A DNA stretch of 64,000 nucleotides from Dongshaea marina (GTDB lineage Bacteria > Pseudomonadota > Gammaproteobacteria > Enterobacterales > Aeromonadaceae): contig NZ_CP028897.1 of the NCBI RefSeq assembly GCF_003072645.1, positions 1,439,658 to 1,503,657 on the forward strand. Reading direction: 5' to 3'. Below, piece after piece: positions 22,588-50,019 of the stretch (position 1 is the first letter of the stretch; every line of letters begins with the position of its first letter). Under the pieces are notes generated by a model, which was given only the letters and a program-made list of their open reading frames with translations, made no database searches and had not been told where the DNA came from. The position numbers and the translations under genes are program-made.

Positions 22588-22690
22588 AAGCTTAGGGTGA
22601 AGTCTCTCCCTGAGAGACAGAACGAGAGATAGGGATATCGAACTGGGGAGGCATATCATGGATGGTATGCGGCGTGTCTATACTGAGCTT
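22588..22690 (+). ncRNA. Candidate structured RNA element, copy A
   Basis: Three stems can be drawn: an outer stem AAGCTTAG/CTGAGCTT (22588-22595 with 22683-22690, one G-T pair), hairpin GTCTCT/AGAGAC (22602-22607 with 22613-22618) and hairpin GCATATC/GGTATGC (22651-22657 with 22664-22670, loop ATGGAT). The joining segments GGGTGAA and GAACGAGAG..A.GGAT..CGAACTGGG are nearly identical to copy B at 49895-50019, whereas the stems differ in sequence but remain paired. Strand is inferred from the shared orientation. The family is unknown to me; a mobile HEARO/omega-RNA-like element is one untested possibility. Confidence 0.5.
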
Positions 22691-22788
22691 CAAGGAGTAA
22701 GTGATTTTCAGGATTTCCACGAATCGAGGGGCACCCTCGGGGTTGTTAGGGGAACACTCTGGTGTGGAAGGGGCCGAGGCCCCTGAGT

Positions 22789-25197
22789 TTACTTCTTATA
22801 GCGCAGCAGTCGCAGCGCATTGAGGGTGACCAGGGCCATGGTTCCGGTATCGGCTAATACCGCAACCCACAGTCCGGTGAGTCCTACCAGGCTGGTAATC
22901 AGGACGATCCCCTTGAGCCCCAGTGCCAGGGTGATGTTCTGGCGAATGTTGTGGCGGGTCGCTCGGGACAGGCCAATCATGTTAGCAAGCTCGATGATCC
23001 GGTTGTGGGTCAGGGCGGCATCTGCGGTTTCCAGCGCAACATCCGAGCCTCCGCCCATGGCGATCCCTATGCTGGCCTGTTTGAGGGCCGGGGCATCATT
23101 GATCCCATCGCCAACCATGGCGACATGCCCCTTACGAGCAGCCTCGGCGACCGCCTCTACTTTATCTTCGGGGAGCAGGCTCGCCTGGTAATCTATTCCA
23201 AGTTTGCCAGCGATCACCGCCGCCGTTCCCGGGTTATCGCCGGTGAGCATCAGGCTGTTGATCCCGAGTTTTCTGAGTTCAGCTACCGCCTGGGTGGCAT
23301 CGTCACGAAGCTCATCACGCAGGGCAATGATCCCCTGGGGCTCGGCATCGACCCAGATCACCACCAGAGTCTTTCCTTCGCTAATTAGCTGCTCCTGCTG
23401 TTTTTGGGCTAGCTGACTTAGTGCTGTTGCCTGCTCGGGTGATTTTCCGGGGGCCAGAAGCTGTACCTCCAGCCCATTGATTTCGCCACGAACGCCCCGG
23501 CCGGCCAGGGCGGTACGGTTGCTTGCTTCACGCAGTGCCACTCCCTGTTCGGTTGCATACTGACAGATGGCGGTTGCCAGGGGATGGTGGGAGCCCAGCT
23601 CTACCGCATAGGCGATCGCCAGAAGTTCGGACTCACTCAGGGTGCCCGTTGCAATCAGGTCGGTGACCTGAGGTTTCCCCTGGGTCAGGGTGCCTGTCTT
23701 ATCAAAGGCCACGGTTTCGACCTGCCCCAGTTGCTCCAGGGCGGCGCCTCCCTTGATCAGGGCTCCGCGCCTTGAGGCGGCGGCAAGGGCTGAGGTGACG
23801 GCTGCCGGAGTGGAGATCACCAGAGCGCAGGGGCAACCGATCAGTAGCAGGGCTAAACCGCGATAGATCCAGACATCCCAGCTCTGGGCAAACGCCATGG
23901 GCGGGATCAGGATCACGGCCACGGCAGCCAGGATCATCATCGGGGTGTACCAGCGGCTGAAACGGTCAATAAAGCGCTCTATCGGAGCCTTTCGCTCTTC
24001 GGCCTCTTCAATCAGGTGCAGAATACGGTCGATGGCATTTTGTCCCTGCTTGGAGACAACCCGTAACTGGGCGGTTTGATCCACTACCAGGCAACCGGCC
24101 ATCACTTTTTCACCCTCCAGGCGTTCGATCGGGATAGACTCCCCGGTCAGGGCGCTCTCATCAAAGCTTGCCTGATCCGAAACCAGCTCAACATCGGCAG
24201 GAAGGCGGCCACCGGCACTGACTTCAATCAGGTCGCCAGGCTTAAGCGCACTGACGGCGACGACCTGACGTTGCCCATTGCGCAGCAAGGTAGTGGTATC
24301 CGGCACCAGCGCCATCAGTGATTTAACTCCCTGACGGGCTCGGTTGGCGGCGTAAGCTTCGAGCTGTTCGCCGATAATAAACAGCAGCATCACCATACCG
24401 GCCTCACCGGTTTCACCGAGAAATAGTGCCCCTATGGTGGCGATACTCATCAGGGTTTCAATGGCAAAAGGGGTCCCGGTGCGTGCCAGCTTCAGGGCTT
24501 TTTGTCCGACAGGGAGCAGGCCTCGCATTGCGGCCAGGCCAAACAGAATTTTAGCTGCAAGGGGGTTATAGAAGTGGGTTGCGAATCCGGCCAGCATCAG
24601 GATGCTCAGGGTGATCACCAGGTGATAACGAACGAAGAAGCCCTGGCTCTCAGCCTCATCTTCATCATTGATGAGATTAAAACCCGCCTTTTTGACCGCC
24701 TTGGTGACGATGCCGGCACTGCTCCCCCGATGCAGATCAACCACCAGTTTCTCTGTGGTAAACAGCACCCTGGCTTGCTCCACTCCGGCTAAATTCTTGA
24801 CGGCATTTTCTATCTTACGGGCGCAGCTAGGGCAGTCCATCCCCTGGATTTGCCAGCTAACACGGGTGGTTTGATCCGCTGTCCCAGCGAGTGGCGATGG
24901 CTCATCACAGCTGTTGCCATTGCTGTCTTGAGCTAAGTTGGATTGGCTGGTTTTGGAAGAGGGGGATTTTGAGGTGGAACATGCGCTCTTTGAGGCGCTA
25001 CAGCAACTTTGACGGGGCGATGCCTCTTCATCCTCTGTGCTATCAGCAGAGGTGTGAGTGGCATGTTCGGCACTCGCTGAGGCTCTGGCACTGACGGCTG
25101 CTACAGACTGGCTGGCACAGCAGCTGGCACCGTGAGGCGTATCCTTGGCAGAGCGATCGAGTTGGGTTGAGTGGGTATGATTACAACGTAAGCACAT
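22789..25197 (-). CDS. zntA: Heavy-metal P1B-type ATPase, ZntA-like (Zn/Cd/Pb export)
   Basis: 802 residues. A Cys/His/Ser-rich N-terminal extension of ~110 residues (SCCASQ, QSCCSASKSACS) precedes a heavy-metal-associated domain with GMDCPSC. Then come the transmembrane region with the metal-site CPC in LLIGCPCALVIST, actuator loop TGES, phosphorylation site DKTGTLTQG, the HP motif in SHHPLATAI and GDGINDAPAL. C-terminal helices end LNALRLLRYKK. These motifs and the CPC-type site match the Zn/Cd/Pb subgroup. RBS AGGAG lies 9 bases before the ATG. A MerR-type promoter lies upstream. Confidence 0.92.
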   Translation of the reverse strand: MCLRCNHTHSTQLDRSAKDTPHGASCCASQSVAAVSARASASAEHATHTSADSTEDEEASPRQSCCSASKSACSTSKSPSSKTSQSNLAQDSNGNSCDEPSPLAGTADQTTRVSWQIQGMDCPSCARKIENAVKNLAGVEQARVLFTTEKLVVDLHRGSSAGIVTKAVKKAGFNLINDEDEAESQGFFVRYHLVITLSILMLAGFATHFYNPLAAKILFGLAAMRGLLPVGQKALKLARTGTPFAIETLMSIATIGALFLGETGEAGMVMLLFIIGEQLEAYAANRARQGVKSLMALVPDTTTLLRNGQRQVVAVSALKPGDLIEVSAGGRLPADVELVSDQASFDESALTGESIPIERLEGEKVMAGCLVVDQTAQLRVVSKQGQNAIDRILHLIEEAEERKAPIERFIDRFSRWYTPMMILAAVAVILIPPMAFAQSWDVWIYRGLALLLIGCPCALVISTPAAVTSALAAASRRGALIKGGAALEQLGQVETVAFDKTGTLTQGKPQVTDLIATGTLSESELLAIAYAVELGSHHPLATAICQYATEQGVALREASNRTALAGRGVRGEINGLEVQLLAPGKSPEQATALSQLAQKQQEQLISEGKTLVVIWVDAEPQGIIALRDELRDDATQAVAELRKLGINSLMLTGDNPGTAAVIAGKLGIDYQASLLPEDKVEAVAEAARKGHVAMVGDGINDAPALKQASIGIAMGGGSDVALETADAALTHNRIIELANMIGLSRATRHNIRQNITLALGLKGIVLITSLVGLTGLWVAVLADTGTMALVTLNALRLLRYKK

Positions 25198-25224
25198 AAC
25201 AGGACTCCTGGCTTTTTTTATGAG

Positions 25225-25254
25225 TTTAAACCTTGGACCTTAGTCAAAGGTCAA
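25225..25254 (-). promoter_or_regulatory. MerR-family-type promoter and operator for the metal ATPase
   Basis: On the minus strand TTGACC (25249-25254) and TTTAAA (25225-25230) are separated by 18 bases that form an imperfect dyad (TTGACCTT...AAGGTCCAAG). A dyad inside an overlong spacer is the hallmark of promoters activated by MerR-family metal sensors such as ZntR or CueR. No regulator gene is adjacent, so it must be encoded elsewhere. Confidence 0.7.
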
Positions 25255-25387
25255 GACAGAAAAGAGGTTATGGTTATTGGTTATCAGCAGTGATTGCTAA
25301 CACCATTTAGTTATTTGAATAGCGAAATCGGCATTTATTGGGTATTTGATCTCTATGGCCTGTTGTTATCTTGTCAGGGGTTCGGCC

Positions 25388-27355
25388 GTGGTCACAATCA
25401 ATTCGATGGTCTCTAATGCAACGAGTTTTCTGCAGCTACAACGCGCTCAACAGGTGCTGTTTAACAGTGCCGAGAAGCTCACTTCTGGCAAGCGGATCAA
25501 TAGTGCAGCCGATGATCCGGCGGGACTTGCGATCGTCAACCGGATGAATTCACAGATCCGTGGCGATAATCAGGCTATTCGTAATGCCAACGATGGGATC
25601 TCCATGACTCAGGTTGCCGATGGAGCCCTTGCCAGTGCAGACTCGATTTTGCAGAGAATGCGCGAGCTGGCGGTTCAGGCGGGTAACAGTACTCTGTCCG
25701 AGAGTAATCGTCGGGCGATTCAATCCGAGTTGGGTATGCTCTCTGATGAGCTGGCTTCGATCGGCAGTCAGACCCAGTTTAACGGGATCAATGTGTTCAA
25801 AAACCAGGGAAGCCTCAACTTTCAGGTGGGATTTAACTCCAGCGTGCAGCTCAACATGGGGGGATTGACCGGGAATACCCTGGAGCAGGGGATCTCAGCC
25901 GCCCGGGGCGATCTCAACGGTGGACGGGTGGAAGCTGCAACCTCCGGGATAGCGGCGGGCAGCGTCACCATCAATGGGGTGGATTTGGGAGCATTAACGG
26001 CATCTAGTGGCGGTGATGCGGATCTCAAGGCCGATCTCATCAACCAGCAAACGGGGCTGACTGGAGTGACGGCCAGTGCAAGCAACCTGATCGAGGGGCA
26101 GGCGGTCGCTGCCGATACCTCTGTCGGTCAGGGAATTCAGGTGACGATAGGGGGCACCACCACCACTCTCAATGGGGCCGCCTCGGTGGATGATTTTGTC
26201 GCACAATTTAACCAAGAGGTCGCCGGGGCCCAGGCGAGTATCACGGCCAGTGGTGCGATCCAGATCTTCAATGATACCGGCAAGGATATCACCCTGACCG
26301 ATAATGCCCTGGGCGATCTGGGTCAGCTGGGGTTAGAGGCCGGTACTTTTGGTGGCAGCATCGCTCTGAGTAGTGCTACGGGCGATCCGATTCAAGTCGG
26401 GCTATCTGCATCCGGAAGCTTTGAGGACCTCAGGGCGTTTGGCTTTAACCAGCAAACCGGGGCTTCGCAATTAACCGGTGGCGAGGTCAGTGGACAGGCG
26501 ATTACCAGTGCAGATGGGATTGAGATCAATGGTGTGGCCCTGGGGGCTTTGGGTACCTTAGGGAGTGAGCTTGGCGCCGATGAGCTGGCTCAGGCCATCA
26601 ACTCTATCAGTGACCAGAGCGGGGTAACGGCGAGCGCTTCAAACCAGCTGGATCTCAGTGTCGATCTGAGTGGATTGCAAAATAACAGTGCCTTGGAGCT
26701 CAATGGTGTGTTTGTGTTTTCCGGGTTTAGTGTTACCAGCCTGGGGGATGCCATAAATACCATCAATGCCGCCGGGATCTCAGGGATCACCGCCAGTGCC
26801 ACCACCGAGGGTGAGCTGCGGCTTTCCAGTAGCAGTGGGGCAAGTATCAATATTGAGAATGGTGATACGGCTTTCAGCCAGGAGGGGAGTGCGATTAGCA
26901 GTAGCCTTACCCAGCGTGGCCAGTTGACTCTGGAGGGAGAGGATGGCCGGGAAGTGAACATCAGCTCCTCGGCAGCCATAGGTCAGCAACAGGCCGCTCT
27001 GGATAAATTGGGACTCAGTGACGTGGGAGGTTTCAGTACGGATACGGGGAACAATGTAGCCAGTGTCGAGAATGCCGGATCCCTGATCGCCAACATTGAC
27101 CGTCTGAGTGCCGAACTCACACAGGCGCGCAGCGCCCTTGGCGCAACCCAGAACCGTTTCGTGTCCACGGTCAATGGCTTGTCTGACAGCATTATCCAGA
27201 ACTCGGCCGCCCGCTCACGCATTGAGGATGCCGATATGGCGCGTAGCATCTCCGAGTTTCTGCAGGCTCAGGTAGCTCAGCAGGCGGGGTTGATTATCCA
27301 GGCTCAGTCGCAAAAGGCTGAGCGGGGAGTGATCTTTTCCTTACTCAGAAGCTAG
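25388..27355 (+). CDS. Large flagellin-like protein with extended central region
   Basis: 655 residues, about twice the size of the lateral flagellins in this window. N-terminal flagellin domain (SAEKLTSGKRINSAADDPAG, NANDGISMTQVADGALASAD) and C-terminal domain (SALGATQNRFVSTVNGLSDS, then LLRS at the end) are complete. The centre (~150-560) holds repeated flagellin-hook IN motifs such as INGVDLGAL and INGVALGAL followed by GVTASAS. GTG at 25388 fits AGGGG upstream. It stands alone, 20 kb from the other flagellins. It could be a minor filament or sheath component, or belong to a polar system encoded elsewhere. Confidence 0.85.
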   Translation: MVTINSMVSNATSFLQLQRAQQVLFNSAEKLTSGKRINSAADDPAGLAIVNRMNSQIRGDNQAIRNANDGISMTQVADGALASADSILQRMRELAVQAGNSTLSESNRRAIQSELGMLSDELASIGSQTQFNGINVFKNQGSLNFQVGFNSSVQLNMGGLTGNTLEQGISAARGDLNGGRVEAATSGIAAGSVTINGVDLGALTASSGGDADLKADLINQQTGLTGVTASASNLIEGQAVAADTSVGQGIQVTIGGTTTTLNGAASVDDFVAQFNQEVAGAQASITASGAIQIFNDTGKDITLTDNALGDLGQLGLEAGTFGGSIALSSATGDPIQVGLSASGSFEDLRAFGFNQQTGASQLTGGEVSGQAITSADGIEINGVALGALGTLGSELGADELAQAINSISDQSGVTASASNQLDLSVDLSGLQNNSALELNGVFVFSGFSVTSLGDAINTINAAGISGITASATTEGELRLSSSSGASINIENGDTAFSQEGSAISSSLTQRGQLTLEGEDGREVNISSSAAIGQQQAALDKLGLSDVGGFSTDTGNNVASVENAGSLIANIDRLSAELTQARSALGATQNRFVSTVNGLSDSIIQNSAARSRIEDADMARSISEFLQAQVAQQAGLIIQAQSQKAERGVIFSLLRS

Positions 27356-27484
27356 TACTGATATTTTGTAAAAGAGTCGATTACCCCTGAGCTAATTATG
27401 CTAGCAGTAAGTCTGAGCCTCTTCAGTGAGGTTCTTTTTCTGCTCATCGGTTAGATTCTGTAAATTCAGTGCATAGGGTTACCA

Positions 27485-28381
27485 TTATTTTTCATGATGA
27501 ATACAGTAACTTTTATTTCCTGACACCAGGGATAGCCTATCGCCCTTCCAAAGATAAGAGCATACCTGGGGAGGGGTATTGTTATAGAAATTCATATAGT
27601 AGAGGCCATCTTTTTGGGTTATGAAGGGGGTATCAGTGAAGAGGTACCAACCTGAGCCATCAATGCCAAAGTTGTGGTAAATCACATCCCCAAAGCTGAT
27701 GTTTTTCCAGCTGTCTCCCTGTTTCTCGTATATAGTATCGATTCCTGAGGTTCTCAAAGAGCCTCCTCCGCGGTAGGCAAATAGATAGTCAGGGGAGCCG
27801 TTATTGTTGATATCTACTTTGTAAACCTGCCCATCAGCAGATGAAGCCTGGCTCTCATTTTTCATGTGAGAGGCTAGCAGTTTTTGGATTGCGGAAGGAT
27901 TGGAGATAGGCTTGACGGGGGCACCAAGCTGATGTTTCTGAGCGGGCAGCTGCAGCTGATAGTTAAAGGCGGTAATTTTTATCAGAGTATTGTCAGTTGC
28001 GCTAAACCAGATGTTTCCGGCATCAAACATAGCACCCTGGTAGTTACACCAAAGCTGATGCTCATTGATAGAGGCGATCCGGCTTCGGATCTCGGGGGGC
28101 ATAATCCTGTTGTAGTTGGAGATAAAATAACCACGATTGATGATCTGGTGCTGCCCGTCCCTGAGATAGACTTTGAGCGGGAACCTGAAAAATTCAGCCG
28201 TTTTGCTGGGAGTACCATTTTCAACGGCTTCTTTAAAACCAACGAGGGTTTGATGGATAAGCCTGCTGTTATAGCCATTATCGTGACAGCCCGTTTGCTC
28301 AAAATCCGCTACGGCATAGCTGGGAAGTGAGAATAGAACACTCAGGCCAATCAAAAAACAAGCAGCGCAATTTATCTTCAT
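27485..28381 (-). CDS. Secreted protein of unknown function
   Basis: 298 residues with a signal peptide (CFLIGLSVLFSLPSYAVA). The middle has a segment like a VCBS/FG-GAP calcium loop (KVDINNNGSPDYLFAYRG), often found in surface or secreted proteins. Four cysteines remain in the mature part. I recognise no enzyme motif. Monocistronic, flanked by the flagellin-like gene and a binding protein. Confidence 0.6.
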   Translation of the reverse strand: MKINCAACFLIGLSVLFSLPSYAVADFEQTGCHDNGYNSRLIHQTLVGFKEAVENGTPSKTAEFFRFPLKVYLRDGQHQIINRGYFISNYNRIMPPEIRSRIASINEHQLWCNYQGAMFDAGNIWFSATDNTLIKITAFNYQLQLPAQKHQLGAPVKPISNPSAIQKLLASHMKNESQASSADGQVYKVDINNNGSPDYLFAYRGGGSLRTSGIDTIYEKQGDSWKNISFGDVIYHNFGIDGSGWYLFTDTPFITQKDGLYYMNFYNNTPPQVCSYLWKGDRLSLVSGNKSYCIHHEK

Positions 28382-28607
28382 AACTATTTTGCAGTGAAAA
28401 TTTTAAAGAATGTTAGCGGCAAGGTACGAAAAGTAGCCGTGAAAATTAAGAGCATCAGTGCACTGCTCATAGTTGAAGGGGAGTGGGAAATAAGAGCTTT
28501 TTGATGGCTCAAAATCGTATTTTCCGCATATTTGGCGGGCGGTTCGAAAATAGCTCCCTATGCCAAGGATTATGCCGTGAACTCACAGGCACAGGGTAGC
28601 ATCAGGT

Positions 28608-29369
28608 TCAGTGAAGGTTATTCATGACATGGTTATCAACAATGCGCTGGTAGGTACCGTCTTTCTGCATCTTCTCTAATACCCTGGTGATCTCTTGCTG
28701 GAGCTGTTTTAGATTTGGATATTTAGACTTTTTGGAGAGGATCAGGTAGGCGGCTTGTTTGTTACCGATAGAGGCGATAGGCGCAATTTTATGGCTCAGG
28801 TTCAGGGTACCGAGATAGTACTGCATCACCTCCAGATGGCCGATAACTCCGTCAACGCGCTGAAGGTCCAACATCTTAAGGTTATTGATATTCTTGCCTT
28901 CATTTACCCTGAACTTATGCTGCTCCATGGCTTTTTGAAACGCATCGCTGATAAAGGCGCCGCTCTCTTTGGCGATAACCTTTCCATCTAAGTCACTCAG
29001 AGAGCTGAAAGAGAACGCATTCTCTTTATTCACAAAAAGATGCATCGCTTCGTAATGCAGTGGCGCCGTATAAAGGCTGAACTCCTGGCGCTGCGGTGTC
29101 AGGAATGCCGCAAACCCGCCATCGACCCGGCCCGCTTCGACTTGAAGCATCACCGACTTCCAGGCGGTCGAGACTATCTTGACCTCCAGGTTCAGCCGAT
29201 TGGCCATCTCCTGCACAAGGTCAATATCAATCCCTGATAGCGCGCCATCTTTCATGTAGTTGAAGGGGGGGAAATCGTCCACGGTTGAAAAAACCAGGAC
29301 AGGTTTGGAGAACGCATAGTATCCCCAGGAGCTTAGGAGGATAAGGCAAAATAGAATAATGCGTTTCAT
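28608..29369 (-). CDS. Periplasmic solute-binding protein, SBP family 3
   Basis: 253 residues from ATG 29369 (signal sequence IILFCLILLSSWGYYAFS). Classic family-3 features: DFPPFNYMKDGALSGIDIDLVQEMANRLNLEV near the mature start, read in two pieces, DGGFAAFLTPQR and VIAKESGAFISDA. Such proteins bind amino acids or act as sensory ligand domains. No permease or ATPase is adjacent. It lacks the DLFPxxLCxGYY signature of the six-gene array, so it is a separate lineage. An upstream in-frame ATG at 29483 is rejected for lack of a signal peptide. Confidence 0.8.
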   Translation of the reverse strand: MKRIILFCLILLSSWGYYAFSKPVLVFSTVDDFPPFNYMKDGALSGIDIDLVQEMANRLNLEVKIVSTAWKSVMLQVEAGRVDGGFAAFLTPQRQEFSLYTAPLHYEAMHLFVNKENAFSFSSLSDLDGKVIAKESGAFISDAFQKAMEQHKFRVNEGKNINNLKMLDLQRVDGVIGHLEVMQYYLGTLNLSHKIAPIASIGNKQAAYLILSKKSKYPNLKQLQQEITRVLEKMQKDGTYQRIVDNHVMNNLH

Positions 29370-29500
29370 GGGGTACCCTGGTGTATATGCCTTCAACGAT
29401 TCAAGACTTGGAGTCAGTATCTTCTGTAATTTTAGTCTATCTCCCTCTTTTAAACCTTTGCTTCCTACTTTGTGCATCAACACCGTTCTCGCTTACATCA

Positions 29501-30019
29501 TTAGGCGATCGACTCAGTTGCCTTGGTAGTGATAGCGACTCTCCTGTCAGCACTCTCCCAGCAAGACGCCGAGCTTTTCGGGGGGGACTGTAAATTGGGA
29601 TGCTGATGTGGAGCCTTACTCAGGAGGCGGTTGATGAGCTGTTGCTGCTGAGCCATTAACAGGCCGTTATTCTGGTTGAGCTGGTGACAGGCGTTGATCT
29701 CATCAAGATACGCCTGCCATTGCCGGACGATGGGATTGGCGATCTTGGGTGGAAGTTTCTTTAGTAACTGGGTGATACCGGTCTTATCGGCACTGAACCC
29801 GAGTGCTTGCAGCAAACCGTCTCTTTGTTGTCCCTGATGGTCAATGGATTGCAAAAGTTGCTGTTGGCACTCTATCAGACGGTTTATCTCAGCGCTGTTA
29901 CACCGATGAAGCGCTTCACTGAGCTGCTGCATCACCCGGTTGAGTTGCTGCAGCTTCTGTGTATCCCTTGCTATTAGCTGGTACAGTCGTTGGATCTTTC
30001 GGGCAAGGGGCTGATTCAT
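29501..30019 (-). CDS. flgN: FlgN-like flagellar export chaperone (lateral system)
   Basis: 172 residues, mostly helical and glutamine-rich, with the FlgN-type middle (LLQALGFSADKTGITQLLKK). FlgN binds the hook-filament junction proteins FlgK and FlgL before export. Overlaps flgM by ATGA. The ending after the G7 run at 29580-29586 (KSSASCWESADRRV) is unlike the family and could be a frame artefact; other frames also stay open for some length. Chaperone identity rests on position and helical pattern. Confidence 0.75.
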   Translation of the reverse strand: MNQPLARKIQRLYQLIARDTQKLQQLNRVMQQLSEALHRCNSAEINRLIECQQQLLQSIDHQGQQRDGLLQALGFSADKTGITQLLKKLPPKIANPIVRQWQAYLDEINACHQLNQNNGLLMAQQQQLINRLLSKAPHQHPNLQSPPKSSASCWESADRRVAITTKATESIA

Positions 30020-30297: not shown

Positions 30298-30373
30298 GAG
30301 AGTGTCCAATAAATCCTGATTGTTGTTATATTCGACGCAAGTTGCCGATTGTTTATAGCCAGGTTGAAAAAGA

Positions 30374-31081: not shown

Positions 31082-31304
31082 CTGTTCTATTATCCCACCC
31101 ATCCGGTGGCTAGTTTAGCCTGAATCCTCCTTTCACAGAAAGACTCATCTCTATCAAAATTAAGACGGGAGTATTTTGATGGGACCTTCTCATCAATCCT
31201 CTCTTGGGCGGAAATAGAGTTTACATTGGCTTCCTCCGCCCTGGTACTTCCGGAAATATCATTTCACATATTGCTCAATGTATTGAAAATAAAGGAATTT
31301 AATA

Positions 31305-31320: not shown

Positions 31321-31354
31321 TTAAGAGTGGGCTTTTGTTGGTTCAGAGGTGAAA

Positions 31355-31723: not shown

Positions 31724-31735
31724 GGCAGGAGCGAG

Positions 31736-32161: not shown

Positions 32162-32164
32162 GTT

Positions 32165-42100: not shown

Positions 42101-42102
42101 GA

Positions 42103-42954
42103 TTACTGTCCACTGAGTTCACTTTCCATATCGATAAAGCTTGGTTTGATTTCGCTGTAGAGTACCCGGCGTCCGGCATCGACGGCGAGCATGGGGGGCT
42201 TACCGGAATTAAAGGCCACTAGGGCACTCTTGAGCATATCCAGCGCCATGATCTCCCGGTTGATCTCTTCTTCGACGGCGTGGGCCATCGGAGAGGCGAG
42301 GCCATAGCTCATAAAGATCCCGAGAAAGGTGCCGGTCAGGGCGGCCGCGACGTGCATGCCGATCACCGCCAGGTTGCCATCTATATGGCCCATGGTCACA
42401 ATGATTCCCATCACCGCCGCCAGGATGCCGAATCCAGGCAGGGCATCAGCAACCTTGAGCAGAGCTCCGGTCGAACGGCCAAGATCACGCTCCACGCCCT
42501 GGATCTCCTCTTCGAGCATCGATTCCAGCTCATGAGAGGGGAGTTGCTGGATTAGCATCAGCCTTAGAGTATCGCAGAGCAGGTGGATGATCCGCTCCTG
42601 CCTGAGGATCCTGGGGTAGCTTTGAAACAAAGCACTTTGTGAAGGAGATTCAATATCTTCCTCCAGCCCCTTAAGCCCCTGCTTGCGTGCCGATTCAAAC
42701 AGCTGAAACATCAGCTGCAGCAGCTCCTGATAGAAGTGAGGGGTAAAGGTGGTTCCCCGAATCAATCCTGTGATGTAGCTCAGGACTCCCATCAGCACAG
42801 CTCTGGAGTTGGATATCACCAAAAAACCCAGGGCTGCTCCCCCGATGATCACGAATTCGGCAGGCTGATAGAGGGCGGCAAAAGGTCCTCCCTCCATGGC
42901 GTAGCCACCGAGGACGCAGATAAAGATGATCAGGACTCCTATCAATTTAAACAT
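42103..42954 (-). CDS. motA: Stator protein MotA / LafT
   Basis: 283 residues from ATG 42954, which has GGAGAG upstream and overlaps the fliA stop. Four helices and MotA motifs: FKLIGVLIIFICVLGGYAME, ADALPGFGILAAVMGIIVTM, and the cytoplasmic loop with charged residues (RKQGLKGLEEDIESP). Forms the ion channel with MotB. The longer upstream frame (to 43044) is rejected. Confidence 0.93.
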   Translation of the reverse strand: MFKLIGVLIIFICVLGGYAMEGGPFAALYQPAEFVIIGGAALGFLVISNSRAVLMGVLSYITGLIRGTTFTPHFYQELLQLMFQLFESARKQGLKGLEEDIESPSQSALFQSYPRILRQERIIHLLCDTLRLMLIQQLPSHELESMLEEEIQGVERDLGRSTGALLKVADALPGFGILAAVMGIIVTMGHIDGNLAVIGMHVAAALTGTFLGIFMSYGLASPMAHAVEEEINREIMALDMLKSALVAFNSGKPPMLAVDAGRRVLYSEIKPSFIDMESELSGQ

Positions 42955-43681
42955 GGATCTCTCCGCAGGTTTCGGTGAATTGAGCCCTGACCCTGAGCAG
43001 GGCCTGCTTATGCAGCTGGCAGGCCCGGGCACGGCCGACCTCAAAAACCTGAGCGATCTCCGTCAGGTTCATTCCAATGTTGTAGTGAAGGTGTAGCAGA
43101 ACCTGCTCTCTGTGAGGGAGTGTTTTCAGGGCCCGGGTGAGCAACTCTTTTTGCTGCTGACGAGCGAAATGCTCGTGTAGAGGATCCTCCCGGGTCTCAC
43201 CACTGGCACTATCTTCCTCAAAACTCAGCAGTTGGCTGGCCTGAATATCATTGAGGGTCTGGCGATATTCATCCAGGCTCATTGACAGGGCATCGGCTAT
43301 CATCTGCTCCCCTGGTTGCGGGTGCCCGGGCTGGCTTAGTGTGGCTATGATATCGCGGATCTGCTGTGCTTTTTTTTGCAGCGGGCGGGGGCGCCAATCA
43401 TTGCGCCTGAGCTCATCGATGATGGCACCGCGGATCCTTTGGCTGGCAAAGCTTTCAAACTGCCCTCCACGCCCGAGTTCAAAACGGTTGGCCGCCTCCC
43501 ACAATCCCATGAGCCCTGCCTGCTCCATGTCTTCGCGGGAGATGGGCTGCCCCACCAGGTTAATGATGCGCGAAGTGATGCGCTTCACCAGGGGGATATA
43601 TTTATGGAGCAGCTGCTCAGGAGTCGCCGTGAGTTGCTCGCTATAGGCCGCCACGCCCTCTTGTTGGGGGTTGGGATACAT
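42947..43681 (-). CDS. fliA: Flagellar sigma-28 factor FliA / LafS
   Basis: 244 residues. Region 2 (EDMEQAGLMGLWEAANRFEL, QFESFASQRIRGAIIDELRR) and region 4 (HYNIGMNLTEIAQVFEVGRA) are intact. Directs late flagellar genes; a matching promoter precedes the flagellins. Next to fliL and overlapping motA. Confidence 0.94.
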   Translation of the reverse strand: MYPNPQQEGVAAYSEQLTATPEQLLHKYIPLVKRITSRIINLVGQPISREDMEQAGLMGLWEAANRFELGRGGQFESFASQRIRGAIIDELRRNDWRPRPLQKKAQQIRDIIATLSQPGHPQPGEQMIADALSMSLDEYRQTLNDIQASQLLSFEEDSASGETREDPLHEHFARQQQKELLTRALKTLPHREQVLLHLHYNIGMNLTEIAQVFEVGRARACQLHKQALLRVRAQFTETCGEIHV

Positions 43682-43684
43682 CCA

Positions 43685-44134
43685 CTACTCCAGAAGATAT
43701 TTGGTGATCAGCAGATCATTGATCTGCTGTTGGCCGGTATTTTGAATCATCACCCGCCGCAGCTCTGCCAGGACGGCTTGTCGAAAGTTCTTCTCATTGG
43801 CCGGATTTGCCAGGTAGCTAAAGCTGTAATGGCTGAGAAGGCGCAGCAGAGCACTACGGACGACCGGCTGATAGAGCTCTACCTCTTTGATCTGCTGAGC
43901 ACTATGGGTCACCAGGGTGAAATCGACGACAAAGTAGCGAATATCCCCATGATCGGACAGGCTAATCACCATCTCCTTGAGGGGGTGAAACTTGGGTGGT
44001 TTGTGCTGCTGAGCATTAAGCTGTGGCTGCGTTTTGTCGGATTGACGCATTTGATAAAAATAATTTGCTGCAGCGCCACACATTGCGCCGAGCAGGAATA
44101 CCAGTAACAGGCTGATAAGGTTCTTTTTACTCAT
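43685..44134 (-). CDS. fliL: Basal-body associated protein FliL / LafF
   Basis: 149 residues with one N-terminal membrane helix (LISLLLVFLLGAMCGAAANY) and a FliL-type periplasmic domain (YFVVDFTLVTH, then LRRVMIQNTGQQQINDLLIT). It supports the stator. Confidence 0.85.
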   Translation of the reverse strand: MSKKNLISLLLVFLLGAMCGAAANYFYQMRQSDKTQPQLNAQQHKPPKFHPLKEMVISLSDHGDIRYFVVDFTLVTHSAQQIKEVELYQPVVRSALLRLLSHYSFSYLANPANEKNFRQAVLAELRRVMIQNTGQQQINDLLITKYLLE

Positions 44135-44149
44135 ATCGGATCTTAGTGG

Positions 44150-45301
44150 TTAGCCAAGGGTATCGAGGAGCTGCTCATGAAGGCGAGCGGCTATTTGTGT
44201 CTCATGGGGCGCAGCTCGGGTGGGGGTATGCCACTCTCGCTGTGGCTGAGCCGGTGGTAGTTGCTGTCCCGGTTGCTGTTGACCCGATTGTTGCTGGGTT
44301 GAGACATCAACCCGAACACTGCCGTGAGTCTGTTGTGCCAGCTCATAGTGAAGCTGGTGCAACTGCTGCTGCAGAGAGTTTTGCGCCTGATGACTGCTGG
44401 TGACCAGCTGTACCTGGGTATGTTGATTGGTCAGTTGGATCTGGATCTGCAACTCACCAAGCTGTGGAGGGTCCAGGCGCAGGGTGGCCTTATGCTGATT
44501 ATTCTTAAGCTGCCAGTTGAGCTGCTGTTGCAGCATCTGCTCCCAGCCACTGTGCTCAAGGTTGAGCGAGTGGTGAAGAGAGGTTGCCACTGGGGTCTGC
44601 TGCGGCTGGAGTAGTGCTCGAGCTCCCTGAGTTTGCTGGGAGTGATTCAGGGCCAACACGGATTGAAGCGGCTGGGGTTGAGCTCCCGGATTTTCATCCC
44701 GGGAGATCTGCCCAAAGTGAAGATGTTCCGGCAAGAGTGATTGCGGTGGGCCCTTTTGTGTGACGCTGGCTCCTTGATGAGGCTCGTTTGTGAGTATCCC
44801 ATTTCTCTGAGATAGTTTACCCGCCTTGCCAGGGAGATGGCTGGCTTGTTGCTGCAGAGCCTGACTCCAGGTCTTTGGCCTGCTGTTTTTGAGCTGGCCT
44901 GGCGTATCCTTGACCGGTTGTTGCTGGGGGAGATTGCTCAGTCCGAAAGAGTGCTCCTTAACCACCACTGGAAGAGGCTGAGGCTTCGGCTGGCAGGCTG
45001 AGTTGAGTTGCATCCGTTTGCCTTTTTCAGTGGCAGCTGGCGTTGTTGCTTGTTTCGAGTCCTGGCTCTGTTGTGGCTGAGCTGGGGATGACAATTGGAT
45101 GGCTAGCTGTTGTGGCTGAGCCTCAGTCCGCTCTGTTTTTTTTGCCGGGGAGGGCGATTTTTTATCCGGATCCTGGTCTTTTTTCACCTTAGCCCTGTGT
45201 TGCTGATGCAGGCCGGAAAAATCGACGCTTGCGCCATGAGAAGGGTGGAGGGCAGAGGCTGAAGCTCCCGTGACTTTAACCTGGTTTATCTGGGTGAGCA
45301 T
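44150..45301 (-). CDS. fliK: Hook-length control protein FliK / LafE
   Basis: 383 residues, exceptionally rich in Gln and Pro as in other FliK ruler regions. The C-terminal Flg_hook domain carries LRLDPPQLGELQIQIQLTNQ, the specificity-switch signature. ATG at 45301 is preferred because GGGAG ends 6 bases before it; ATG 45307 would abut the SD. Confidence 0.88.
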   Translation of the reverse strand: MLTQINQVKVTGASASALHPSHGASVDFSGLHQQHRAKVKKDQDPDKKSPSPAKKTERTEAQPQQLAIQLSSPAQPQQSQDSKQATTPAATEKGKRMQLNSACQPKPQPLPVVVKEHSFGLSNLPQQQPVKDTPGQLKNSRPKTWSQALQQQASHLPGKAGKLSQRNGILTNEPHQGASVTQKGPPQSLLPEHLHFGQISRDENPGAQPQPLQSVLALNHSQQTQGARALLQPQQTPVATSLHHSLNLEHSGWEQMLQQQLNWQLKNNQHKATLRLDPPQLGELQIQIQLTNQHTQVQLVTSSHQAQNSLQQQLHQLHYELAQQTHGSVRVDVSTQQQSGQQQPGQQLPPAQPQREWHTPTRAAPHETQIAARLHEQLLDTLG

Positions 45302-45303
45302 AC

Positions 45304-45603
45304 TCATCTCCCGGTGACCTCCTGATAGGCATGAATCGCCCGGCGGGTATGTGGAAGCTCTTTCAGCTCTTTTTGGGCAAGCAGGGCCTCGGCCCGGGCC
45401 TGATCTCTGACCTTTAGATAGAGCTCTGCTAAGGCTTTCATCTGGCGATCGGTTTCGGGATCCCGGTCGAGCTGAAAGAGCTCTAATTGATGAAGCTTTT
45501 GGTTAAGCTGGATAAAGCGCTCCAGGTCTCCATCCTGCTGCGCCCGGGTCAGCAGGGGCAGCAGGGTTATCAGTTGTCGCTTGTTGGTTGATGGCAGTTT
45601 CAA
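45304..45603 (-). CDS. lafD: LafD, FliT-like small flagellar chaperone
   Basis: 99 residues, mostly helical (KRQLITLLPLLTRAQQDGDL, RDQARAEALLAQKELKELPH). It sits between fliS and fliK exactly where FliT/LafD lies in lateral clusters. FliT chaperones FliD. Sequence alone is weak evidence; position supports it. Confidence 0.65.
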   Translation of the reverse strand: MKLPSTNKRQLITLLPLLTRAQQDGDLERFIQLNQKLHQLELFQLDRDPETDRQMKALAELYLKVRDQARAEALLAQKELKELPHTRRAIHAYQEVTGR

Positions 45604-45980
45604 GGGCTAAGCTGCTCCCAGGCTTGTTTGACCGGAGCCAGGCTACTCATTACCTCATCGACCAGCTCTGTTTTGTTGCGCAGGTTTGCCTCCATCAGCT
45701 GGCGCATACAAAACAGGTAAAGCTGGTGCAGGCTTTCGGCGACTTCAGGGTTCTCATCGGGATCCAGGGCGCTATCCAGGGTACTGAGGATCTCCATGCA
45801 GCGGTTGGCTTCCCGGGTTTTATCCTGGATCCGCTGATGTTGGATATGTGCCTTCATCCGGATCAGGCTGTGAAACAACCCCTGATACAGGAGTTGAAGC
45901 TGTTTGAGAGGGGAGGCCACATTGATGTTGGCATCAATGATGGACTCCTGGTAGGCATTGAACGGGGTGTTTGATTCCAT
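45600..45980 (-). CDS. fliS: Flagellin export chaperone FliS / LafC
   Basis: 126 residues. NAYQESIIDANINVASPLKQ and LQLLYQGLFHSLIRMKAHIQ match FliS, with a helical fold. It binds flagellin before export. Downstream of fliD by 3 bases, overlapping lafD. Confidence 0.92.
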   Translation of the reverse strand: MESNTPFNAYQESIIDANINVASPLKQLQLLYQGLFHSLIRMKAHIQHQRIQDKTREANRCMEILSTLDSALDPDENPEVAESLHQLYLFCMRQLMEANLRNKTELVDEVMSSLAPVKQAWEQLSP

Positions 45981-45983
45981 AAT

Positions 45984-47411
45984 TTATGTTTGGCTGTTGG
46001 TTTTAAAGTATTGCTGCAACATCGACATGCTGTTATTCATCTGATCGACGATCGCTTGTGATGCCGTGAACTGTGCGATGAGACGACTACGATAATCATC
46101 CATTCGGGTATTCAGATCGTCCGTTTCTTTGGTCAGGCCATCGAGATCTTTATTGAGTGAATTAACCCGGGAGTTGAGTACGGTTGTGTTGCCTGAGCTA
46201 TCGGTGGAATAACTTTTGAAAAGACTATCGAGTTGCTTGATGAGCCCCTTGTCGCCGCCTATCAACTGCTGTGCCGCTGCCGGGTTATTATCAAGGGCTT
46301 TATCGAGCTTATCGTTATCGATCTCAAGCTTTCCGCCACCATCAAGCTCGGTCTCAATCCCTAGCTGAGCAAGGGAGACTGAGCCACTGCCGGTTACGTT
46401 CTGAATGAGCTGCTGCATCTTGGATTGCAACTGGGAAGGGATGGTTTCAGAAACCAGAGCACCCGAGGTGGTGCCTGAACCACTGCTGTTTTTAGTCAGC
46501 TGATTGATAAGATCGATCACCTGGTTATAGGAATCGACAAAACTATTGAGATTATCCTTAAGGGTTTTGTCATCCTTACTAACGCTCAGATGAATCGCTT
46601 GATAGTTATCCGGGTTGCTGGTGTCGACATCTTTACCCGTTTTCAGAGGAGACACCTGTTTCAGGTCAAGAGTCATGCCGGGGATCAGTCCGCTGATCTG
46701 ATTACTGCTCTCTTCAAATATGGGGGCATCTTTTCCCAGGCCATAGGCTATTTTGGCATTTTGAGCCGCTGCGAGTTGCTTTTGATTGGAAGCGTCTAAG
46801 AGGCTATTTAGCTTAGGATCTCCGCTTGCAGAGACTGTGAAGCTGGCATCAATTCCGGTGTTGCTTCCCTGAAGCACTAGGTGTTGCCCCTTGTTGTCGG
46901 TGATGATGGAGGACTTAACGCCACCTTTGCTGGGCAAAGCCTGATTGATCGCCTTAGAGATATCTTGCAGGCTGCTTCCGGCTGGGATATTCACGCTATA
47001 GGAGGTACCAGCATAGTCGATGCTGATGCTTGATGCTTCAGTCGTTTTGCTATCCGCGATCCATGCACTATTGGTATAGGTTTGCTGGGCCTGGGCCAGT
47101 TGCAGCACCTCAAAATTATACTCGCCCTCAGCTGCGCTGCCGGTCACTGTGGCGCTCAGTGTGCCATTATCACTGCTGGCTATCTTCATCGGATTAAACG
47201 CATTGGTAGCGTTAAGATCTTCGAGGCTACTTTGGGCTTTTTCCAGGGCAGCCTTGAGCTGACTGTAGGCAGATATCAGGGTCTGGTCGGTCTGTGTCTG
47301 CATCTTGATCAGCGCATCGGGTCCCGCGCGCTCTGCGGCAACCAGAGCGTCGATCGTCTGCATATCAATGCCGGAACTACTGGCGGGCGAGGTTGCGGAT
47401 ACACTGCTCAT
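45984..47411 (-). CDS. fliD: Filament cap protein FliD / LafB
   Basis: About 475 residues. N-terminal SSSGIDMQTIDALVAAERAG, a DSYNQVIDLINQLTKN and the conserved SLAQLGIETELDGGGKLEID in the D1 region. C-terminal coiled coil (LNTRMDDYRSRLIAQFTASQ). ATG 47411 is chosen because GGAG ends 6 bases before it; two further ATG codons lie directly upstream. Confidence 0.93.
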   Translation of the reverse strand: MSSVSATSPASSSGIDMQTIDALVAAERAGPDALIKMQTQTDQTLISAYSQLKAALEKAQSSLEDLNATNAFNPMKIASSDNGTLSATVTGSAAEGEYNFEVLQLAQAQQTYTNSAWIADSKTTEASSISIDYAGTSYSVNIPAGSSLQDISKAINQALPSKGGVKSSIITDNKGQHLVLQGSNTGIDASFTVSASGDPKLNSLLDASNQKQLAAAQNAKIAYGLGKDAPIFEESSNQISGLIPGMTLDLKQVSPLKTGKDVDTSNPDNYQAIHLSVSKDDKTLKDNLNSFVDSYNQVIDLINQLTKNSSGSGTTSGALVSETIPSQLQSKMQQLIQNVTGSGSVSLAQLGIETELDGGGKLEIDNDKLDKALDNNPAAAQQLIGGDKGLIKQLDSLFKSYSTDSSGNTTVLNSRVNSLNKDLDGLTKETDDLNTRMDDYRSRLIAQFTASQAIVDQMNNSMSMLQQYFKTNSQT

Positions 47412-47439
47412 CATCATCTCCTGTGTGAAGTGCGCTTAA

Positions 47440-47457
47440 TGCAAAAATAAAGCCAAT
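47440..47457 (-). promoter_or_regulatory. Sigma-54 type promoter for the fliD-motB operon
   Basis: Minus-strand TTGGCTTTATTTTTGCAT has GG and GC separated by exactly 10 bases, as at the flgB promoter, and lies about 28 bases before the fliD start. Confidence 0.78.
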
Positions 47458-47573
47458 TATTTTTTTGTTTTATTTCATCGAGTTACATTTTTTGTCCCCC
47501 GAAAGTTTCCTTCCGGAACAGCTCAGGCGGAAATACACTCTGTTATTTTTGGTCTTTGAGTCCTGGCCACTTA

Positions 47574-47611
47574 AAAATGCAGGACAGCAGGAGAACTCCC
47601 TGCAGTCCTGC
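47574..47611 (-). terminator. Terminator after the second flagellin gene
   Basis: GCAGGAC (47579-47585) pairs with GTCCTGC (47605-47611), with an additional inner stem GCAGG/CCTGC. A T5 run follows in the minus direction. Confidence 0.75.
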
Positions 47612-47626
47612 TTGGCTTTTAGTGTG

Positions 47627-48610
47627 TTACCTCAGCAAAGACAGTACATTCTGTGGCAGGTTTTTGGCCTGGGCCAGGACCGAGGTTCCTGCCTGGATCT
47701 GAATGTTCTGCTGAGCCATGTTGGCGGCTTCGGTGGCGTAATCGGTATTCATGATCCGCCCCTGGGCCGTGGTCATATTGGTAGAGATGTTCTGCAGGTT
47801 AGAGACCGTATGCTCGAATCTGTGCTCCATGGAGCCCAGAGTGGACTGGAATCCACCGACCGCGGTGAGCATTTTATCAATCGCCTTGATCGAATTTTCT
47901 TCCGCGAGCTTGGTTTGCGCGGCATCAATTTTTGCTGGGTCAGTTTCTGATTTCCCTGTGGAGTCTACGGTGCCTATCGTTCCGAGTAGCCGGGTATTCA
48001 TGTTTACCCCCATATCGGTACATTTGACCTCAATGGTATTTCCGTCTGAAACATTCGAGCCAACGAGGAAATCGACTCCGCCCGTGGGATGGTTGGTTGC
48101 ATCGTAATCAAGGATTCCCCATGAAGCGTTACCACCGATCCCTCCGGCAACAGGGGCGGCATCCGTTCCACCTGTACCATCGTCGTCATAGAAACTGAAG
48201 AGTTGCTGTGAACCAAAAGTGGTCGTTTTCTCTATACGATTCAATTCTTCTTTGAGCTGGGTAAACTCTTGGTTAAGTGCTTTTTTGTCATCATTACTGG
48301 TGGCACCATCCAGAGATTGAACACCTAGATCGCGCATTCTTTTCAAAATACTAGTGAACTCCTTAAGGGCTCCATCAGCGGTCTGAGCCATTGAAATTCC
48401 ATCCTGAGCATTTTGCACCGCACGGTTAAGACCATTGATTTGCGAATCCATGCGATTAGAGATCTGCAAGCCTGCCGCATCATCATAGGCACTGTTGATT
48501 CTATGCCCGCTGGATAAGCGCGCCATGGTACGGTTGAGCTTATCGGTGGCATAGCTGATGTTGTTTTGGGCAATTTCAGAGCCAGAGGTGCTGAAAATTG
48601 AGATAGCCAT
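47627..48610 (-). CDS. lafA: Lateral flagellin, second copy
   Basis: 327 residues, starting AISIFSTSGSEIAQNNISYA and ending with SVLAQAKNLPQNVLSLLR. It shares these terminal domains almost exactly with the gene upstream but differs in the central segment (GGTDAAPVAGGIGGNAS). Tandem copies probably arose by duplication, 15 bp apart, and are likely co-transcribed. It builds the lateral filament. Confidence 0.96.
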   Translation of the reverse strand: MAISIFSTSGSEIAQNNISYATDKLNRTMARLSSGHRINSAYDDAAGLQISNRMDSQINGLNRAVQNAQDGISMAQTADGALKEFTSILKRMRDLGVQSLDGATSNDDKKALNQEFTQLKEELNRIEKTTTFGSQQLFSFYDDDGTGGTDAAPVAGGIGGNASWGILDYDATNHPTGGVDFLVGSNVSDGNTIEVKCTDMGVNMNTRLLGTIGTVDSTGKSETDPAKIDAAQTKLAEENSIKAIDKMLTAVGGFQSTLGSMEHRFEHTVSNLQNISTNMTTAQGRIMNTDYATEAANMAQQNIQIQAGTSVLAQAKNLPQNVLSLLR

Positions 48611-48625
48611 GATTTAACCCTCTGT

Positions 48626-49522
48626 TTAACGCAGCAGTGACAGCACGTTTTGCGGCAGGTTCTTGGCCTGAGCCAGTACCGAGGTTCCCGCCTGGATCTG
48701 AATATTCTGCTGTGCCATGTTGGCGGCCTCGGTGGCGTAATCTGTATTCATGATCCGCCCCTGAGCGGTTGTCATATTGGTGGAGATGTTCTGCAGGTTA
48801 GAGACCGTATGCTCGAATCTGTGCTCCATCGCCCCCAGGTTCGACTGGAAGCCTCCAACAGCGGTCAACATTTTATCGATAGCCTTGATGGCATTCTCTT
48901 CGTTGGTTTTGGTGGTGGCAGCATCGGTATCAAACTTAAGGCTTCCTAAGCTTGCCGTATCCATTGCGGTGGCTGTATCCGTTAATTTCACGGTCACTGT
49001 ATTTCCATCAGAAACATTTGCCCCAACTAAAAAGCTAACGCCAGCATCTAAAAGACCATTGGTTGTGGGGACAGGTGTGCCTGAAGGATTGGAGCTATCT
49101 TTAGAGCTGAACAGATTCATATCTCCAAAGGTGGTCGTTTTGCCAATCCGATCCAGTTCCTGCTTGAGCTGAGAGTATTCAGTATCGAGAGCAGCTTTAT
49201 CATCCTGACTGGTTGCACCATCCAGAGATTGAACGCCCAGATCGCGCATTCTTTTCAGAATGCTGGTGAACTCCTTAAGGGCTCCATCAGCGGTCTGGGT
49301 CAAAGAGATACCGTCCTGGGCGTTTTGTACCGCGCGGTTCAGGCCCTGTATTTGAGAGTCCATTCGATTTGAGATCTGCAGACCCGCTGCATCATCGTAG
49401 GCACTGTTGATTCGATGCCCACTGGATAAGCGCGCCATGGTGCGATTGAGCTTATCGGTCGCATAACTGATATTGTTCTGGGCGATTTCTGAGCCCGAGG
49501 TGCTGAAGATTGAGATAGCCAT
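48626..49522 (-). CDS. lafA: Lateral flagellin, first copy
   Basis: 298 residues from ATG 49522, which has GGAG upstream. Nearly identical ends to the downstream copy and a shorter centre (SKDSSNPSGTPVPTTNGLLD). Preceded by a sigma-28 type promoter. The upstream in-frame ATG that would give 308 residues is rejected because the conserved flagellin start is AISIFST. Confidence 0.96.
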   Translation of the reverse strand: MAISIFSTSGSEIAQNNISYATDKLNRTMARLSSGHRINSAYDDAAGLQISNRMDSQIQGLNRAVQNAQDGISLTQTADGALKEFTSILKRMRDLGVQSLDGATSQDDKAALDTEYSQLKQELDRIGKTTTFGDMNLFSSKDSSNPSGTPVPTTNGLLDAGVSFLVGANVSDGNTVTVKLTDTATAMDTASLGSLKFDTDAATTKTNEENAIKAIDKMLTAVGGFQSNLGAMEHRFEHTVSNLQNISTNMTTAQGRIMNTDYATEAANMAQQNIQIQAGTSVLAQAKNLPQNVLSLLR

Positions 49523-49557
49523 TAAGATTCTCCAAGAAAAATGAAAAAGCACGGCTA

Positions 49558-49584
49558 CAATCGACGCCCAAATGAGAATGTTTA
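49558..49584 (-). promoter_or_regulatory. Sigma-28 (FliA) promoter of the flagellin genes
   Basis: On the minus strand TAAACATT, 11 bases, then GTCGATTG, matching the flagellar consensus TAAA-N15-GCCGATAA closely (one mismatch in the GCCGAT core). It lies 36 bases upstream of the first flagellin start. Confidence 0.82.
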
Positions 49585-49608
49585 GTCTGGAGGGAATTTT
49601 TCTTTCTC

Positions 49609-49626
49609 GTGCTGCGCACGGCTGAT
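49609..49626 (+). repeat. 18-bp identical copy of a dispersed repeat end
   Basis: GTGCTGCGCACGGCTGAT occurs exactly at 21648-21665 as well. It probably marks the end of a third member of the intergenic repeat family here; the rest of this copy is too diverged to follow. Confidence 0.55.
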
Positions 49627-49894
49627 ATCAGGTTGAGCAGGGATCTCCTGGCATCCTTTGGGAGGCATAGCTTGTGGCAAAGGCCATATCTTCACAGAAC
49701 AGCTAAAACTCAAACGGTCGTTCCTGGCTCAGAGTTCAGAACGAATAGAGCCGATGGAATATGGGTGAGCACTCAAAAAACACGCACCGATTGTGCTTTA
49801 AATGATCAACCCAGGGATTTTTAGTGATGCAGAAGCAAGTTAAATAACTGTTCCAAATAGTAGAACACTTGGAGCAGCTGTTGAATTGTGAATA

Positions 49895-50019
49895 AGCAGA
49901 CCCTCTGCGTCAGGGGTGAAATGGTTTTAAGCCATTGAACGAGAGGTATGGATGCCGAACTGGGAAAGGCTATCAGGGATGATAGCCGATGCGGTGGAGC
50001 GATTCATAGCGTGTCTGCT
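49895..50019 (+). ncRNA. Candidate structured RNA element, copy B
   Basis: Stems: AGCAGAC/GTCTGCT (49895-49901 with 50013-50019), AATGG/CCATT (49920-49924 with 49932-49936) and GGCTATC/GATAGCC (49968-49974 with 49981-49987, loop AGGGAT). There is also a small CCCT/AGGG hairpin absent from copy A. Conserved joining segments are shared with copy A (22588-22690). Stem sequences differ between copies but pairing is kept, which argues for RNA-level function. Confidence 0.5.

Follow-up and report, generated by a model that had tools for sequence, protein, structure and literature searches.

What is the structured noncoding element that occurs twice in a 64 kb window of the Dongshaea marina genome, and what might its structure be for? 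The window, meaning the whole 64,000 nt stretch of contig NZ_CP028897.1 analysed here, contains two copies (copy 1 and copy 2), and the original prediction held that they share sequence blocks and keep their stems paired with different sequences. By inspection of the sequence, we found both copies where they had been placed, and we saw directly in each that stems unlike in sequence retain pairing. The family of repeated elements to which they belong is real, widespread and structurally conserved, and is apparently undescribed so far. We favor the reading, to which we give an even chance, that this is a dispersed mobile structured element whose transcript would bind CsrA/RsmA; the element is probably mobile, and its transcription and CsrA/RsmA binding are what we infer from sequence features.

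Two copies of a structured element

The core module of copy 1 (22595..22670, plus strand) consists of a P2 stem followed by two GGA-bearing hairpins, P3 and P4. It opens with the block GGGTGAA (22595-22601), followed by the P2 hairpin GTCTCTC/GAGAGAC (22602..22618, arms 22602-22608 and 22612-22618), the base of which, GTGA...GAAC, could form a tandem G.A loop. The block GAACGAGAG (22620-22628) leads into the P3 hairpin GAT-AGGGAT-ATC (22628..22639), assigned from its sequence and from loop-class frequencies, and the block CGAACTGGG (22639-22647) separates P3 from the P4 hairpin GCATATC-ATGGAT-GGTATGC (22651..22670); the loops of P3 and P4 are both ANGGAN hexaloops. Copy 2, also on the plus strand, has the same order within its core module (49914..49987): GGGTGAA (49914-49920), a P2 stem AATGG/CCATT (49920-49924/49932-49936), GAACGAGAG (49937-49945), the P3 hairpin GGT-ATGGAT-GCC (49945..49956), CGAACTGGG (49956-49964) and the P4 hairpin GGCTATC-AGGGAT-GATAGCC (49968..49987). 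The shared blocks had been described as unpaired; the blocks are present, but the middle one overlaps the small P3 hairpin in both copies.

Both copies had also been placed near a dispersed repeat, and the relationship is closer than that. Copy 2 belongs to an element with clear boundaries, a whole subfamily A element at about 49841..50062 (plus strand) with the left end TTAAATAACTG and the right end AGCTAGTTA, whereas copy 1, of a different subfamily, lies inside a repeat mosaic of ~1.1 kb (21638..22756, no strand assigned) that matched up to 13 other loci of the same genome by blastn. The left part of this mosaic carries minus-strand ANGGAN hairpins. A further mosaic fragment without the core (56703..56811, no strand assigned) was delimited by blastn, with up to 12 loci, and by its sequence; it carries a minus-strand GGA hairpin and lies near an FHIPEP-family gene.

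A large dispersed family

Across the 5.11 Mb genome there are 10 exact matches to the pattern GGGTGAA-N-GAACGAGAG-N-CGAACTGGG and 33 matches to the core when as many as three mismatches are allowed; the reversed controls gave no match in either search, so the copies are not due to chance. A scan of genome contigs identified 106 further stretches in other species, which by their titles are mostly Shewanella, with several Pseudoalteromonas, one Aliiglaciecola and one metagenome-assembled genome labelled Boseongicola. A covariance model (R1), the kind of search that had been suggested, matched 41 of 394 genomes of the order and 12 of 115 genera; the family to which the window's genome belongs gave no match besides that genome itself. 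At the level of the class, R1 matched 7 and a second model, R2, 12 of 369 genomes, the window's genome included. At most 11 to 16 candidates were scored per genome by the models, and copy numbers are thus lower bounds; weak class-level matches that by eye resemble coding sequence (L221, L222, L268, L272, L274) were not used further.

No match was found in plasmids in a distant search with the copy 2 region, and viral contigs contained no exact core. The proposed Rfam check recognized no family, HEARO included, for either copy at E values up to 5. At the gathering level, the sole match in the whole window was a tRNA, and eight further loci matched only rRNA and tRNA genes. We also found no description of the family in the open-access literature, to which the search was confined. 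The module would be a new RNA family for Rfam.

Covariation indicates selection on RNA structure

We scored 13 named base pairs in an alignment of 86 distinct modules (A1) against 500 shuffles and against slid partners. Standard pairs accounted for 96.3% of stem cells in the alignment (shuffled mean 79.3%), 186 cells were changed on both sides (57.1 shuffled), and the covariation score was 0.444 (0.181 shuffled, and at most 0.157 for slid partners); none of the 500 shuffles reached any of these three values. The number of pairs with change on both sides was 11 compared to 8.7 in the shuffles, six of which reached 11. For a second alignment covering more genera (A3), at least three pairs around the P4 loop were demanded and 126 sequences were thinned to 26. 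Pairing was 90.2% compared to 70.3%, and the score 0.605 compared to 0.227 in the shuffles, while two of the five measures fell within the range of the shuffles (reached by 131 and 182 of the 500). The P3 stem illustrates these changes, reading GGC/GCC, GCC/GGC, GAC/GTC, ATA/TAT or GGT/ACC among copies.

The A1 pattern itself demanded GGTGA, [AG]A[AG]CG[AC]GAG, GGA in P3, CGA[AG]CTGG and [CT]A.GGA.[GA] in P4, while the pairs of P2 and of the P3 stem, along with the outer two in P4, were left unconstrained; its counts exclude L001-L010 because L011-L040 largely repeat them. The conservation of the demanded letters, and so of much of the tandem-GA motif described below, is therefore not independent evidence.

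Mismatches in the stems are informative about the strand. G-U outnumbered A-C among mismatch cells, which are not independent of one another (43 compared to 7, with 31 others), and also when each distinct stem was counted once (15 compared to 3, with 11 others); a weaker count, for ANGGAN hairpins with one mismatch, gave 13 G-U, 5 A-C and 14 others. A double-stranded cruciform would give no such excess, which points to RNA of the reported, GGA-bearing strand. Together with the covariation in 86 and in 26 sequences, this bears out the proposal that selection acts on RNA structure. Folding energy, with its weak z-scores, neither picks the strand nor carries this claim: element strands scored z = -3.15, -2.37 and -2.03, the opposite strand of one of these -5.04, and modules alone -2.96, -1.31, -1.19, -0.28 and -0.11, and the best fold of L043 is missing both P3 and P4.

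Within the conserved module, the P2 stem has a loop that varies, the short P3 and P4 stems each end in an ANGGAN hexaloop, and P2 and P3 can each form a tandem G.A internal loop at the base. The P2 base (GTGA-R...Y-GAAC) and P3 (G-N-GA-G...C-GA-N-C) represent one motif used twice, with a G-C pair, a second position, a tandem G.A/A.G and then the stem. Most of its letters were demanded by the search patterns, with the P3 second position partly free. The tandem G.A pairs, presumably of the sheared type, appeared in single-sequence folds of P2 for L010, L049 and L218 and of P3 for L218, but not for L020 or L043. At the P3 second position, the 26 thinned sequences have A with A (14) or C with G (12), and 79 rows compared by eye have A/A 63, C/G 8, T/G 2, A/G 4, G/A 1 and C/A 1; the link between the two bases is strong but not strict.

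P3 and P4 loops have the features of CsrA/RsmA sites

The P3 and P4 loops are hexaloops of the form ANGGAN, mostly closed by C-G. Counting distinct perfect hairpins of at least five pairs, we found ANGGAN in 38 of 433 hairpins from 45 loci of the window's genome (single-base variants 0-5 each) and in 81 of 2414 from the 106 other-species loci (4-15 for each variant), with C-G closure in 33 of the 38 and 61 of the 81. ANGGAN is the commonest hexaloop class within these loci, though not across the whole 64 kb window.

The result is independent of how copies were found, as tests without a motif demand gave the same loop. When only GAACGNGAG and CGARCTGG were demanded, the P3 loop contained GGA in 75 of 79 listed rows (30 of 34 distinct) from the window's own genus and one other genus (g10, family f6); this count used the first places listed per genome and left out 18 rows from other genera, where by eye 6 of the 18 listed, mostly single hits, have GGA. 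With no demand downstream, ANGGAN followed within 35 bases in 75 of 91 distinct stretches, 72 of them with a hairpin of at least three pairs in P4.

Stem-loop 2 (SL2) of RsmZ, GGGCCATCAAGGACGATGGUCC, is given in the consulted part of a preprint as binding RsmE in the low nM range (PMC12047976). This sequence reads as ATC-AAGGAC-GAT, an ANGGAN loop with C-G closure as in P3 and P4. For Shewanella, CsrB RNAs with AGGA/ARGGA motifs and the BarA/UvrY/Csr pathway are documented in the consulted sections of another study (PMC3171408). The genome of the window encodes one CsrA, and it has three matches to the CsrB model (RF00018) over the cut-off plus two weaker ones (matches at 3016348-3016638, 3364561-3364848, 3545587-3546113 and 328626-328905). 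The same model was unmatched at both copies at E values up to 5 while it matched these CsrB genes, which places the element outside the CsrB family.

Element ends resemble those of inverted-repeat transposable elements

Subfamily A comprises 21 loci with inverted ends at the boundary of similarity, typically CTAAATAACTG...CAGCTATTTAG, and 19 retain the full right end. By eye, CT precedes AAAT at 18 of the 21 left ends and G follows 16 of the 19 aligned right ends. The ends fit a TA duplication at CTAG (C-TA...TA-G), which is not proved; TA duplication at CTAG is the pattern of IS630.

Fifteen genome stretches have subfamily A arms without the core, 13 with both arms, L181 with a cut right arm and L180 with the left arm only. 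In the 14 short copies with both sides, the center is a plain hairpin of the GCGTC-ANGGAT-GACGC type, with the GGA kept in 12. In long copies, GCGTCAGGG (5 of 6 by eye; GCGTCAAGG in L005) is followed by the module of ~73 bases and then GATGYRG. The halves of the hairpin thus flank the module, which sits in the loop of the central hairpin; the core of copy 2 accordingly occupies the site where short copies have a plain hairpin loop. A second hairpin, TTCC-ATGGAT-GGA, is by eye kept in 10 of 14 short and 5 of 6 long copies. The module is common to subfamilies with unrelated ends. The element looks like a miniature inverted-repeat transposable element (MITE) with CsrA docking hairpins, but its assignment to any named family of MITEs is unproved.

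The idea of a mobile structured RNA, part of the original prediction, is supported by the dispersal, the defined ends, the patchy distribution and the direct repeats flanking some copies in other genera; movement itself was not seen, nor was a clean empty site. All 60 of 60 Shewanella genomes searched with the flanks of L200 gave a match without a clean empty site, and among the rows listed the matches were mostly to the right-hand gene alone. Among the relatives found for the copy 2 element there was no other genome of the window's genus, and the 39 matches within its own genome included no evident copy whose arms lie far apart.

Some copies are joined to tRNA, 5S rRNA and CRISPR units

In some distant genomes, the module lies beside a partial stable-RNA unit, to which it is joined after GG, and a longer copy of the unit then follows. 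Direct repeats of at least 15 bases flank 29 of 160 modules, compared to 6 of 160 random places. Seventeen of the 29 repeat-flanked rows are from Shewanella; among these, only L133 has a repeat ending in GG at the module, and many look like tandem or nested element parts. Among the other 12 rows, the left repeat closes with GG either where the module starts or right beside it in L214, L218, L219, L239, L269, L271 and L279, and five have no such end (L067, L217, L241 twice and L270). The repeated unit is a tRNA-Arg ending in the D-loop at L218, L269 and L279, 48 bases of tRNA-Met at L219, an antisense tRNA-Pro ending at the T-arm at L271, antisense 5S rRNA at L239 and a unit of a CRISPR array, with a repeat that we take to be type I-F, at L214. 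ARAGORN detected a complete tRNA next to the module at all five tRNA loci, where the repeat starts 0-2 bases from the mature end of the tRNA. The insert between the repeats is 92-157 bases at the six loci other than L239. A 5S gene in L229, from the same genome as L239, was matched by Rfam. The 5S copy after the module is again partial in L239; by eye, only L241 and L243 have an intact one.

Similar arrangements were seen elsewhere. Junctions of this kind were noted by eye at L216 (tRNA-Phe), L278 (tRNA-Ser, diverged) and L231 (CRISPR). At L218, L219, L216, L269, L278 and L279, a truncated tRNA cut after GG, in the D-loop except for L219, precedes the module, and the complete tRNA follows it within ~90 bases of the P4 hairpin. 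Elements within CRISPR arrays, at L214/L232 and by eye at L231, have on either side one copy of a spacer together with half a repeat. At L229, L236, L239, L241 and L243, copies, some in tandem, adjoin a 5S rRNA gene and are linked to the 3´ portion of 5S in antisense orientation. Contigs of genome G546 (L234, L238, L240, L242, L244) contain tandem arrays; that of L234 includes a repeat of the module's left half, placed behind the GGG of the module's own P3 hairpin. In the 106 stretches from other species, a tRNA gene was found within ~250 bases of the module in five (L076, L084, L113, L118, L120).

The tRNA, 5S and CRISPR junctions suggest that structured elements can become joined to stable-RNA genes by an unrecognized route. 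One way to account for them would be an RNA-templated mobile retro-element, scattered over the class, that carries CsrA/RsmA hairpins and rewires or feeds on the Csr network, an interpretation that we consider unlikely. The start of the repeats so close to the mature ends at the five tRNA loci would be expected from the copying of processed RNA. Such an element would spread by joining itself to copied stable-RNA units, each junction following a GG that lies at the apex of a hairpin or close to it; the units would comprise the tRNA D-arm, the antisense tRNA T-arm, antisense 5S, the CRISPR repeat and the element's own GGA hairpins.

Proposed function and alternative explanations

In the reading that we favor, the element would be transcribed from a neighboring promoter, on the strand of the original prediction, and the ANGGAN hairpins in the transcript would bind the CsrA/RsmA dimer. 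The element might thereby titrate CsrA or bring the neighboring transcript under CsrA control, and insertion would spread CsrA sites through the genome. If the hairpins do bind CsrA, a global regulator of gammaproteobacteria faces tens of extra, moving sites in the genome, the copy number of the element could set the level of free CsrA or allow the capture of neighboring genes, and the family would offer a direct test of regulon rewiring by repeats.

Several observations weigh against this proposal. No sigma-70-like promoter was found at either copy, and the window contains no GacA/UvrY box (TGTAAGN6CTTACA) with up to two mismatches. For 105 modules, a count restricted to those flanked by an ORF on each side and excluding one that lies within a long ORF, the left gene is on the GGA strand in 56 and the right gene points against the element in 69, and this orientation gives no support for sense read-through. 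The central-loop GGA is, by eye, missing in two of the 14 short subfamily A copies (L168, L172), the second-hairpin GGA is gone in four of the 14, and copy 2 is the long copy without the second hairpin. Some mosaics carry GGA hairpins on both strands. No subfamily A transposase and no IS630-type DDE_3 match was found in the genome. GGTGA, GAACGAGAG and CGAACTGG are conserved beyond what CsrA binding needs, suggesting that something else may recognize the module.

As for other signals around the copies, three terminator-like sites were present near copy 1 (0.3 expected), none of them directly at the module end, and copy 2 had no terminator-like site. Convergent genes are the commonest arrangement at the 105 module sites (38), with divergent and same-sense (+,+) genes the least common (18 each). 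The orientations suggest that the elements avoid the upstream side of genes.

The conserved blocks that exceed the needs of CsrA are equally a point for the chief rival, in which the structure serves mobility and the folded RNA or single-stranded DNA is the substrate of a mobilizing enzyme, such as a reverse transcriptase, an HUH or other transposase, or an integrase, that recognizes the tandem-GA module and the GGA loops. The seven loci outside Shewanella and the window's genome, where the left of two direct repeats has a terminal GG at the module start or next to it, also argue for this explanation. No enzyme has been linked to the element, however, such a GG end is found in only one (L133) of the 17 repeat-flanked Shewanella rows, and the constraint on the loop is CsrA-like in detail, with A, GGA and C-G closure favored and the other two bases free. 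We hold a mobility function to be possible but doubtful; the element may also serve both regulation and mobility. That the copies are ordinary MITEs, short inverted-repeat sequences carried along by a DNA transposon and structured only as a consequence of being palindromic, would agree with the subfamily A ends CTAAATAACTG/CAGCTATTTAG and with CT/G flanks that fit a TA duplication. A by-product would not be expected to show covarying internal stems or an ANGGAN loop kept across subfamilies with unrelated ends, and the failure to find an IS630-type DDE_3 gene in the genome counts against this explanation too, which we regard as improbable.

Two further explanations fare worse. GGA is part of the Shine-Dalgarno sequence, and loops mimicking it might trap ribosomes, but T is frequent at the second loop position (16 of 38 in the window's genome, 31 of 81 in other species) and predominates at the last (26 of 38, 60 of 81), which does not fit AGGAG, and the fixed first A and the C-G closure would be left unexplained; we consider a decoy of this kind very unlikely. 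The original prediction had suggested a HEARO/omega-RNA-like element, here a guide RNA of an IscB/TnpB system, and a dispersed structured RNA is what such an element would look like. This suggestion was not supported: there was no Rfam match at E values up to 5, and a Pfam scan, restricted to the window, detected no HNH, IscB or TnpB among eight proteins encoded near the repeats, leaving a probability close to nil. HEARO, the Shine-Dalgarno decoy and the plain MITE were thus considered and ranked below a mobile element with a CsrA/RsmA-binding transcript.

Comparison with known systems

Like HEARO/omega-RNAs, the element would be a structured RNA associated with mobility, though it is without an Rfam match and no nuclease was found among the eight window proteins scanned. 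The similarity to CsrB/RsmZ (RF00018) lies in the several GGA motifs in hairpin loops and in the ANGGAN loop with C-G closure, as in RsmZ SL2 in the consulted part of its source. In contrast to CsrB/RsmZ, the element is dispersed in many copies and has a module with tandem-GA motifs, each subfamily A copy has two to three GGA hairpins, and no promoter or GacA box was seen. No GGATG was found in a REP survey, whose consulted Shewanella passage treats GTAG repeats (PMC3733652). REP/BIME sequences are likewise dispersed extragenic hairpins, compared to which the element is longer and branched.

RUP, ERIC and Correia elements are MITEs that are short, intergenic, present in many copies and bounded by inverted ends. 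The element shares all of these properties, with a possible TA duplication in subfamily A. It differs from them in that subfamilies with different ends share an internal module with CsrA-type loops, and in that it occurs in many genera and is joined, in some distant genomes, to stable-RNA units.

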